A stretch of 64,000 bases of DNA from an uncultured Paenibacillaceae bacterium (GTDB taxonomy: Bacteria > Bacillota > Bacilli > Paenibacillales > K13). The stretch is from the NCBI GenBank assembly GCA_913056365.1, contig CAJXLT010000004.1:124001-188000 (forward strand), written 5' to 3'. Each line of letters starts with the position of its first letter. The first letter of the stretch is position 1. Positions 57,605-60,233 of the stretch are shown here, piece after piece. The notes under the pieces were generated by a model. It saw only the letters and a list, made by a program, of their open reading frames with translations, did not search any database and was not told where the DNA came from. A program made the position numbers and the translations under genes.

Positions 57605-59002
57605 ATGGCTAAGCAAATGCCCGAAATAGGCGAGTACAAGTATGGCTTCCGTGATGAGCATAAGTCGATCTTCCAATCTGGGAAAGGGTTGACAGCGGAC
57701 ATTGTCAGAGAAATTTCCCGCATTAAGGGTGAGCCTGACTGGATGCTGGACTTCCGCCTGAAATCGTTGGATCAGTTCAACAAGATGCCGATGCCGAGAT
57801 GGGGCGGAGACTTGGACGAACTGGATTTCAATGACATTCAATACTATGTGCGTCCGTCTGAGAAGCAAGGAAAGACTTGGGAGGAGGTTCCTTCCGAGAT
57901 CAAATCGACCTTCGATAAGCTCGGAATTCCGGAAGCAGAGCAGAAGTTTCTAGCTGGCGTATCCGCACAGTACGAATCTGAAGTTGTCTATCACAGCATG
58001 CAGAAGGAGCTGGAAGATCAAGGCGTCATCTTCTGCGATACAGATACGGCGCTGCGTGAGCATCCGGAAATCTTCCGTGAGTATTTCGGTTCCATCGTTC
58101 CGCCATCAGACAATAAGTTCGCTGCATTGAACAGCGCTGTATGGTCAGGCGGAAGCTTTATCTATGTGCCGAAGGGCGTGAAGTGTGAAGTTCCGCTGCA
58201 GGCATACTTCCGCATTAACTCAGAGAACATGGGGCAGTTCGAACGGACGCTCATCATTGTCGACGAAGATGCATTCGTGCATTACGTCGAAGGATGTACA
58301 GCACCTGTATACAGCACGAATTCGCTGCACAGCGCAGTCGTCGAGATCGTATGCCGCAAAAATGCGCGCGCACGCTATACGACGATTCAGAACTGGGCGC
58401 CGAATATTTACAATCTAGTCACTAAGCGTGCGGTTGCAGAAGAGAATGCAACCATGGAGTGGGTAGACGGCAACATCGGCTCGAAGCTGACGATGAAATA
58501 CCCGGCAGTTGTGCTCAAGGGTCGCGGGGCCAAAGGAAGCGTGCTGTCGATCGCTGTTGCAGGCAAGGAACAGCATCAAGACGCAGGGGCGAAGATGCTG
58601 CATCTGGCACCGGACACAACTTCTACGATCGTCTCCAAGTCGATCAGTAAGCACGGCGGGAAAGTAACCTACCGCGGTCTGGCATCGTTCGGCCGTAATT
58701 CGCAGGGCTCGAAGGCGAACATCCAATGCGATACGCTCATTATGGATAAGGAGTCGACTTCGGATACGATCCCGTACAATGAAATCTTGAATGATAATAT
58801 TACGTTGGAGCACGAAGCTACAGTATCCAAAGTATCCGAGGAGCAGCTGTTCTACTTGATGAGCCGCGGTCTATCCGCAGCCGAGGCGACGCAGATGATC
58901 GTCATGGGCTTCATCGAACCGTTCACCAAGGAACTCCCGATGGAGTACGCAGTTGAGATGAATCGTCTCATCAAGTTCGAGATGGAAGGCAGCATCGGGT
59001 AA
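57605..59002 (+). CDS. sufB: SufB, Fe-S assembly scaffold
   Basis: The main scaffold of the SufBC2D complex, 465 residues. Signatures are [45 protein letters not shown] and the C-terminal [25 protein letters not shown], read in parts. AAGGAGGTAGGG precedes the ATG. Its 3' end ([10 protein letters not shown]) and the terminator after it are partly repeated about 985 bp downstream, beyond a toxin-antitoxin-like pair. Confidence 0.97.
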
Positions 59003-59140
59003 TAAGCTAAAACCCTTGTTGCTGCAAGGGATTCTGATGTCTGAATAACGCTTCGCCCATGATTTGCCCATTAATTAATTTTGAACGTATTTCTCATAAA
59101 GGGCTAGGGAATCGTTTCGATTTTCTTAGTCACATGTAGA

Positions 59141-59205
59141 TACGTGTCCGCTGTGACTTTCACGCTTGCGTGCCCAAGTCAGTCGCTCGGACACGTATTT
59201 TATAT
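59141..59205 (+). terminator. Terminator after sufB (copy 1)
   Basis: TACGTGTCCG (59141) pairs with CGGACACGTA (59188), with an inner paired stretch around CACGCTTGCGTG, then a T-rich run. A related terminator with the same inner core is at 60012. The rest of 59003-59274 shows no gene. Confidence 0.8.
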
Positions 59206-59274
59206 TTTCACCTATTTTTGCGTGTGCTACTGTAAAAGGATTTGTTATAATAAAGTTGAGGAAGGTGATTAATC

Positions 59275-59556
59275 ATGGAATTCATTACGAAAGAACAACT
59301 GGACTTTAACTTGGGTGATAAGTCCAAAATAGAATTAGTTGACTTGATTCAAGTAATTGAGGAACAGTTCGGATATAAAGTCTCAATTTCAAGGAAGTTT
59401 ACGGAAGAACAAATAAAAAAAATGACAAATGTTATTTTTTCAGACAAAGATGTGTTAAGACAGCTGAAAGAATCGGAACTTGAACCTGAAGGAAATGATA
59501 TTGAAAGTTCTGAAGATTATTCCCGTTTTATGAAAGAGGTAGGTAGTGAGGGGTAA
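59275..59556 (+). CDS. Putative antitoxin of a RelE/ParE-like pair
   Basis: A 93-residue acidic protein, rich in Lys and Glu with A/T-rich codons unlike the suf genes. There is a helical start (KEQLDFNLGDKSKIELVDLIQVIEEQFGY, read in parts) and an acidic C-terminal tail (ESELEPEGNDIESSEDY) that may bind the toxin. I do not recognise a named antitoxin family. TATAAT (59246) and GAGGAAGGTGAT precede the ATG. The downstream gene starts 11 bp before its stop. Antitoxin role rests on gene order and the partner's fold. Confidence 0.55.
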   Translation: MEFITKEQLDFNLGDKSKIELVDLIQVIEEQFGYKVSISRKFTEEQIKKMTNVIFSDKDVLRQLKESELEPEGNDIESSEDYSRFMKEVGSEG

Positions 59557-59872
59557 ACCTAACCTATATCGTGTGTCATGGACCCAGCCAGCGCTGAAGG
59601 CGCTGGCCAAGCTTTTTAATGTCTCACACAACGATGTATTCAAGCGATCCAAACTAATATTGTCTCGGAATCCCCAACAACAAGCAGAGGGTGTAGCGGA
59701 CCACCCTAACTTTAAATACGATGGATACTACTGGGTTTTAATACATAATGTTATTTTAGTTTATACGGTATCCGAGATAAAAGAGCTTGTTCGTATACGG
59801 GCTTGCTATTTCGCAAACACTGAAGCTTCTCATCAGATTTTTTGGGGAATTGAGCCAGAGGAAGACGAATAA
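59546..59872 (+). CDS. RelE/ParE-fold toxin-like protein
   Basis: A 108-residue protein with the RelE/ParE pattern: LYRVSWTQPALKALAKLF opening strand and helix, KRSKLILSRNPQQQ helix with the usual Asn-Pro turn, then beta-strands FKYDGYYWVLIHNVILVYTV (read in parts) and KELVRIRACYFA. Toxins of this fold cut mRNA on the ribosome or poison gyrase; catalytic residues vary, so the target is unknown. GTG start with AGAGG upstream, overlapping the antitoxin-like gene by 11 bp. Confidence 0.6.
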   Translation: MRGKPNLYRVSWTQPALKALAKLFNVSHNDVFKRSKLILSRNPQQQAEGVADHPNFKYDGYYWVLIHNVILVYTVSEIKELVRIRACYFANTEASHQIFWGIEPEEDE

Positions 59873-59954
59873 AGACATGAACAATAAGGTATTGGAGTTG
59901 CAACATTCATTCGTCTAACGTAAGGGTAATATCGCGTGACGATAGCCCAAATTA

Positions 59955-59987
59955 ATCAAGTTCGAGATGGAAGGCAGTATCAGCTAA
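59955..59987 (+). pseudogene. Duplicated 3' tail of sufB
   Basis: ATCAAGTTCGAGATGGAAGG continues as CAGTATCAGCTAA and repeats the sufB end at 58970 with one base change over 27 bp, encoding [10 protein letters not shown] and a stop. Nothing upstream resembles more of sufB. It marks the right edge of the inserted toxin-antitoxin-like segment. Confidence 0.85.
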
Positions 59988-60011
59988 GACTTATATCGAG
60001 GGTTTGTAAAG

Positions 60012-60066
60012 ACGTGTCCAAGTGACTACCACGCTTGCGTGCCATAGTCGCTTGGGCACGTTTTAT
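60012..60066 (+). terminator. Terminator copy 2
   Basis: ACGTGTCCAAG (60012) pairs with CTTGGGCACGT ending at 60061, with further pairing inward, then TTTT. The inner CCACGCTTGCGTGCC is shared with the terminator after sufB. The remaining part of 59873-60233 shows no gene. Confidence 0.75.
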
Positions 60067-60233
60067 TTGTGTTGGGCCAGGAGATTAGCATGCACCTGGC
60101 ACACATCCCCATAGGCAGCATGCTTTGGCATGCGCGTATATGACCACTGATCGCATATTCCCACTCGATTCGCTTCATCCTATAGTCAGGACGGAGAGGT
60201 ATCCGGGCCAATATCATTGAAGGAGCGGTCAGT

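Follow-up and report, generated by a model that had tools for sequence, protein, structure and literature searches.

A collapsed integrative element at the 3′ end of sufB and the putative suf terminator left by its integrase gene

Here, we analysed a 64,000-nt stretch of DNA (the window) from an uncultured Paenibacillaceae bacterium (assembly GCA_913056365.1, contig CAJXLT010000004.1, positions 124,001 to 188,000), focusing on the region directly 3′ of sufB, where two small open reading frames (ORFs) are enclosed by two copies of the sufB end. We interpret this locus, with a probability of roughly 0.8, as a temperate phage or phage-like element that has collapsed to a remnant and whose integrase gene carried an intrinsic terminator on its antisense strand, which was kept as the terminator of the suf operon after the element decayed. 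Sequence comparison brings to light an insertion with its attachment sites, an integrase remnant, hairpins homologous to integrase genes, a bias at the synonymous sites of these genes, and stems that stay conserved after the integrase frame is lost.

Results

The sufB ORF (57605–59002, + strand), which relatives match over its full length at 79–96% identity, ends in codons that form an attachment site. Its last 33 bp (58970–59002, + strand), constituting the core copy of the left attachment site (attL), recur on the same strand at 59955–59987 (right attachment site, attR), with 30 of 33 positions identical, a 23-bp stretch without any difference, and a start-to-start distance of 985 bp. By our own arithmetic, about 1e-10 such 33-mers with at most three mismatches would arise by chance in 64 kb, i.e. 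none is expected. The two small ORFs between the copies have a G+C content of 0.33 and 0.43, as compared to 0.515 in sufB. In the one same-genus genome searched (G001), a single sufB end is present at the locus, followed directly by a short hairpin and no insert, and the shared sequence, the start region of an NlpC/P60 gene, resumes 213 nt 3′ of sufB compared with 1167 nt in the window; because of the single end and the different spacing, we consider the window to carry an insert and G001 to represent the empty site. A preliminary description of this DNA had pointed out the recurrence of the sufB end about 985 bp downstream with toxin–antitoxin-like ORFs in between, interpreted it as site-specific insertion at a gene end, and proposed looking for a single-copy empty site in relatives. 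The repeat holds at 30 of 33 bp, the empty site was found in G001, and the insertion is further borne out by an integrase remnant on the sufB side and by phages and prophages with the same attachment core. As a side observation, G001 has a second sufB, 89% similar, on a small contig (G001:C10:3929-5323, L056), which is either a true second copy or contamination.

An inverted repeat right after sufB (59013–59030), which is also terminator-like on the − strand, is located where several intact elements have CCTTGATATATCAAGG-like repeats, and is a possible core-type integrase site. It is followed by direct repeats (GCCCATGATTTGCCCA, 59054–59074) like those of the P. oleatilyticus element L062, which may serve as arm-type sites. 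The 3′ remnant of a tyrosine integrase gene (59075–59212, − strand) begins 72 bp past the sufB stop and is convergent with sufB; its 5′ part is lost and its frame is broken at least twice, the residual reading being distributed over three frames of the − strand (NIKYVSERL / GHASVKVTADTYLHVTKKIE / NDSLALYEKYVQN*). In blastn, a stretch that includes the sufB end (58900–59212) is 78.7% identical to L062. Judged by its sequence, the locus is a collapsed integrated element comprising attL, arm-type-like repeats, the broken integrase remnant, a toxin–antitoxin-like pair, and attR. With the sufB-end core at both ends it belongs among the sufB-integrating tyrosine-integrase elements, as a relic in which the integrase is no longer intact.

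Related integrases share this location. When the integrase of another Paenibacillus (L035, itself frame-broken) was used as the query, all 21 related genome loci were found to adjoin sufB in convergent orientation (20 were assigned by a sufB match and L066 by a sufB tail at a contig end, while L060 is the query's own locus). The distance between the integrase and sufB stops is mostly 55–85 bp, being shorter in L069, L072 and L075, and repeats in direct orientation that resemble arm-type sites, and might act as such, are found in this gap, for example TTTGCCCATGATTTGCCCA in L062. The sufB-end sequence is also found beside the integrase gene in Brevibacillus phage Emery and Staphylococcus phage SAP-26, and a scan of IMG/VR for the sufB tail returned 57 stretches, 39 of which have an ORF after it in the convergent orientation, the one that the search covered. 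Thirty-two of these ORFs match that of Emery (E < 1e-3): the identity is at least 64% in 21, 36–38% in three and 23–25% in six, and the other two match in part.

One hairpin is found 3′ of each copy of the sufB end. The first (59134–59207, + strand; nhmmer E 4.3e-20; dG −29.7, z −5.3) lies antisense within the integrase remnant, and corresponds to the antisense of the integrase codons VSERLGH...TADTYL of the catalytic region, while its T-rich tract is the antisense of the NIKY codons. The second (60012–60073, + strand; dG −32, z −7; E 7.2e-7 with our covariance model R1), whose match to the integrase profile covers 60012–60061 (nhmmer E 2.8e-7), appears to be the remnant of an older integrase 3′ end. 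The hairpin cores make up a second repeat pair in the window (59153–59180 and 60022–60049, 86%), and at both positions a stable hairpin is accompanied by a T-rich tract in the direction of sufB, as in an intrinsic terminator; a simple scan of the window for terminators with loops of 3–8 nt listed neither. The duplication of the sufB end together with a terminator core, as initially described, is upheld for the sufB end, but the hairpins are not copies of a host terminator made by the insertion, because both match the antisense of the integrase 3′ ends of sufB phages (E 4.3e-20 and 2.8e-7). We propose the first hairpin as the present suf operon terminator; the second, to judge from its sequence and place, was probably the suf terminator before the last insertion, and would now be positioned to end the transcript of the toxin–antitoxin-like pair.

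The palindrome might have arisen by chance within coding DNA or be under selection, and comparisons with synonymous recodings favour the latter. In 19 of 29 distinct Emery-like loci, the real antisense strand folds more stably over 24 codons than random synonymous recodings do (z −3.1 to −6.0), an excess seen in none of the 31 rows of other integrases or weak matches (L092–L122, many of them near-identical); the test took every locus from L060 to L122 with a motif score of at least 8, and three identical rows were counted once. Windows slid along 12 Paenibacillus-kind genes placed the global fold peak of 11 of them at 18 codons before the gene end; the twelfth, L069, which has a longer tail, peaks 30–36 codons in, and Emery, which has an alternative hairpin, at 30. 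Similarly, the best antisense intrinsic terminator in the last 150 codons beats all 30 recodings in 25 of 33 hand-picked sufB integrases, compared with one of 26 non-sufB recombinases of relatives (Fisher p 1e-8, relatedness ignored) and none of three more non-sufB genes. Identical and some near-identical or truncated genes were left out of the 33-gene set before the runs and none was removed after scoring, whereas the 26 controls derive from 30 recombinases after subtraction of two sufB loci and two ORFs shorter than 250 aa. The sole control recombinase with an antisense terminator above all its recodings is L205 (G005:C6:1036525-1037580).

Distant integrase lineages carry different antisense hairpins. 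The integrase gp47 of Emery (KC595516) and its family share with the window remnant the integrase type, the attachment core, the arm-type-like repeats and an antisense hairpin; Emery, however, pairs its VSE with LGH codons in a shorter hairpin, whereas the window remnant pairs VSE with ADT codons. In the Geobacillus/Bacillus kind, it is the 3′ end of the integrase gene that pairs with the ADT codons (CCGCTGATACA...TGTCAGCGG then TTGTTTTTAT). The hairpin of L147 (GAGGGCGAACTT...AAGTTCGTCCTC) and that of the Staphylococcus kind (AGAGATGTCCAT...ATGGATATCTCT then TTTTT), about 450 nt 3′ of sufB, differ again, and L182 has yet another. The antisense terminators of SAP-26 and of phage YPHTV-1 (partial gene) beat 60 of 60 recodings. 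We had considered the Geobacillus-type integrases a failure of the terminator idea, and dropped this view when the other antisense hairpin was found nearer their gene end. The YPHTV-1 record (ON854455, L274), labelled as a Halomonas phage, has a sequence resembling the sufB end at its terminus and contains a sufB-type integrase; the antisense hairpin of this integrase equals that of L180, a viral contig, and the host label may be doubtful.

The hairpin also occurs in genomes where little else of the integrase remains, and a number of relatives seem to rely on it to this day for ending suf transcription. The stem motif ACGTGTCCG-N10-40-CGGACACGT is present in five of 40 genomes, once in each and always directly after sufB. 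Of 50 sufB loci searched with a DNA profile of the hairpin, 19 have a match after sufB at E < 0.01 and 14 of these reach E < 3e-6, while reversed sequences gave a best E of 2.5 (within the 50 loci, L036 repeats L018, and L005 and L054 belong to the training set of the profile). Model R1 matches 47 of 198 genomes of the order, at least four of which (G030, G062, G139 and G008) also supplied training rows. In 43 genomes the match was located beside sufB; in G020 and G122 it lies elsewhere, and in G111 and G172 it was not placed. Searches with tblastn identified an integrase of full or nearly full length beside sufB in six of the 43 (frame-broken in G030) and a long part of one in three, with short matches or none detected in the remaining 34. 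Among 11 leftovers that lack a long integrase, nine retain complete pairing of the outer stem (10/10 or 13/13) and two nearly complete pairing (12/13 and 11/12), while the loop drifts to as few as 12 of 28 consensus positions.

Five other genomes show stacked leftovers. The distance from the first core to a second one that lacks sufB is 62.6 kb in G060, 37.6 kb in G062 and 50.2 kb in G015, a prophage-sized spacing, and each second core is followed by what remains of an older integrase gene, again with this hairpin. G139 and G143 likewise have a second core and hairpin, on a contig other than that of sufB. The window has the same stacked layout with about 1 kb left, and its two hairpins are best read, from these comparisons, as two generations of integrase leftovers from successive insertions.

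The ORFs between the cores encode an antitoxin-like protein of 93 aa (59275–59556, + strand), all of whose family scores are below the cut-off, and a toxin-like protein of 108 aa with a GTG start (59546–59872, + strand), the two ORFs overlapping by 11 bp. The toxin–antitoxin label given earlier stands as a faint resemblance: the toxin-like protein matches RelE_StbE (E 0.0028, 18.1 of 27.9 bits) and ParE (E 0.046, 14.7 of 23 bits), in both cases under the family cut-off. The pair is like the RelE/ParE type II systems in being small and bicistronic with a weak toxin profile match, and unlike them in these sub-threshold scores and in having no PADLOC match at E ≤ 1. Profile searches of the Protein Data Bank (PDB) with both proteins returned nothing convincing, and a single-sequence fold model of the toxin (predicted local distance difference test score 53.5), with no PDB match at E ≤ 0.001, was too poor for its matches to be used. 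Matches to the toxin-like protein occur in 11 of 198 genomes, its own included, and in one Paenibacillus plasmid record, at 41–50% identity except for a 26-residue fragment at 62%. A partner ORF adjoins the toxin in all 12 other loci (in L133 it was recognised by ORF and alignment, in the other 11 by tblastn), among varied neighbours, and the toxins of L134 and L135 appear broken. A reading of the pair as phage cargo was rejected: searches of phage records found no match, viral contigs yielded no confirmed one, and the pair did not occur beside other sufB integrases.

On these sequence grounds, the two genes are best called a toxin–antitoxin-like pair of an unnamed family, and both cargo of the element and later arrival would fit. 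The earlier suggestion that the pair is situated outside the first terminator of the operon agrees with the hairpin at 59142–59196. The pair does not look like a minimal mobile cassette and represents the remainder, between attL and attR, of an element with a broken integrase. A 9-bp hairpin near the 5′ end of the toxin-like gene (59587–59607), which has a T-rich tail in the sense direction, could dampen toxin transcription; of eight toxin homologues examined, most form a hairpin in this region, but by eye the T tract is absent from all of them. Separately, in Cohnella fermenti (L068:5046-5331) a different toxin gene, of the ParE type (PF05016, E 2.1e-9), is situated beside the sufB integrase, so that a toxin gene at that place is conceivable.

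Discussion

In the mechanism that we propose, a tyrosine integrase would insert the element into the last codons of sufB, by which the sufB end would be restored, while the operon's own terminator would come to lie on the other side of the element. The convergent integrase gene, about 60 bp from sufB, would then offer an antisense-strand intrinsic terminator to RNA polymerase leaving sufB, with synonymous codon choice maintaining the hairpin and the U tract. On decay of the element, the integrase frame would be lost and the hairpin retained as the suf terminator. The window would have undergone at least two such rounds, the hairpin past attR being the older one, the hairpin beside sufB the current terminator, and the toxin–antitoxin-like pair a survivor between them. 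Termination itself, the order of these events and the role of the pair are what we infer. We see even odds for a broader principle of terminator restitution, according to which elements inserting at the 3′ ends of protein genes restore both the gene end and, through the antisense strand of the integrase gene, its terminator; this would have arisen more than once among sufB phages, decayed phages would keep supplying the host operon with terminators, and other gene-end sites may follow.

Several points weigh against our interpretation. Termination of suf transcripts at the antisense hairpin is a prediction from sequence, the rest of the element is gone, with a phage and another integrative element both fitting what is left, and the empty-site comparison relies on one same-genus genome. 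The 33 sufB integrases are related, were chosen by hand to cover lineages, and are not all that we have in hand; in four of them the sense strand also beats the recodings, and in eight (L077, L079, L137, L142, L151, L173, L177 and L184) the antisense strand does not. In five of these eight (L079, L137, L173, L177 and L184), a good hairpin extends across the gap and the integrase end, outside the scoring of that test, and L077, L142 and L151 show small hairpins only. Geobacillus-type genes fail the 24-codon hairpin test and pass only at another place, and, as noted, some genomes matched by R1 had also trained it. Finally, covariation of the stem pairs in 28 sequences is supported by 31 double-changed cells against 13.4 ± 3.3 in shuffles (reached in none of 500, with a maximum of 13 in slid registers), but neither the count of pairs that show a double change (7 versus 5.6, matched in 122 of 500 shuffles) nor that of further pair types (177 of 500) stands out, so that two of five covariation measures are not above the shuffles, and relatedness alone, for which the shuffles do not control, can raise the others.

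Among the alternatives, the direction of transfer might be the reverse, the host hairpins being ancestral and the phages having taken the suf terminator into their integrase genes. Several short suf terminators (L007, L002 and L040) have mainly the stem in common, as this would predict, but many leftovers also hold non-stem integrase positions and longer integrase homology, the stem is built from codons of a conserved catalytic region, and sibling lineages made other hairpins, all of which renders this scenario unlikely.

We likewise find it improbable that the hairpin is kept for reasons of DNA, i.e. as a site for integrase, excisionase or repressor or as a folded recombination site. It does lie near the phage attachment site, its outer stem is a long palindrome, and core- and arm-type-like sites are close by; nevertheless, the stem is retained in leftovers that lack the integrase, and the hairpin position varies by integrase lineage with the T tract always next in the direction of sufB. 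That distant integrases seem to have the same function at different places is, of all arguments, the one that most favours a terminator over a fixed protein-binding site. The strand signals point the same way: in 18 hairpin rows chosen from the 24-codon fold test, departures from the commonest pair, when read in the antisense RNA, comprise 26 G-U against 8 A-C pairs, in addition to 20 Watson–Crick and 10 mismatched ones, and the isoleucine codon that feeds the T/U tract is ATA in 18 of 18 rows versus 69 of 282 isoleucine codons in 11 of those genes.

There is little to recommend the idea that the pair is a small cassette flanked by attachment sites and moved in trans by the integrases of sufB phages: the pair does stand alone between two core copies, but an integrase remnant lies inside the flanks, no sufB core occurs within about 1.5–3 kb of the 12 other toxin loci, and no copy of the pair was found in the 199 integrase or attachment loci searched except for the window's own. 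A plain local duplication of the sufB end without gene acquisition, to which just 33 repeated bp and the want of a working integrase might speak, was rejected as highly implausible in view of the integrase remnant, the arm-type-like repeats, the same core in phages, a toxin-like protein with no match in the same-genus genome G001, and the full-size spacings of the same stacked layout in G060, G062 and G015.

Regarded as a collapsed phage-like element at sufB, the locus has counterparts in the Sa1int-type Staphylococcus and the Latilactobacillus sakei prophages, which the available parts of published reports describe as attaching at or beside sufB (PMC6036120, PMC11117363, PMC8297860, PMC9641780). 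The L. sakei attL given there (Table 3), reverse-complemented here, corresponds to the last sufB codons, and a Staphylococcus integrase of this kind is convergent with a sufB-end sequence, as in the window. In contrast to these prophages, the window holds a relic only, and the portions of those reports at our disposal do not mention a terminator in the integrase gene. Insertion of the speA prophage at ssrA of S. pyogenes, downstream of a host gene, likewise changes the terminator used, according to the accessible text (PMC9951164), yet termination is weakened there, whereas a replacement was apparently brought here. The available passages of other papers report that prophage insertion can disturb host promoters (PMC6814406) and that terminators evolve in compensation in Bacillus cereus (PMC5381666). 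Protein lists of P. larvae prophages, as far as the source is available, include SufB and NifU (PMC9341999), which, given attachment at sufB, may be an artefact of the boundaries drawn by prophage prediction.

The broad picture is ordinary: the locus is a prophage-like relic, and attachment at sufB is already in print. What appears to be new, as far as we could find, are antisense terminators written into integrase genes and, by their sequences, apparently kept by the host; the texts available in one open literature library contained no description of a terminator inside an integrase gene.

To our knowledge, integration at gene ends is usually explained by restoration of the coding sequence, and the fact that the host gene also loses its terminator receives less attention. 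At sufB, one stretch of DNA has apparently been selected on both strands, as the catalytic region of an integrase and as the terminator of a host operon, which suggests how phages could reduce the cost of lysogeny. It would also be a clear example of a host adopting regulatory DNA from dead prophages, in suf, an important operon.
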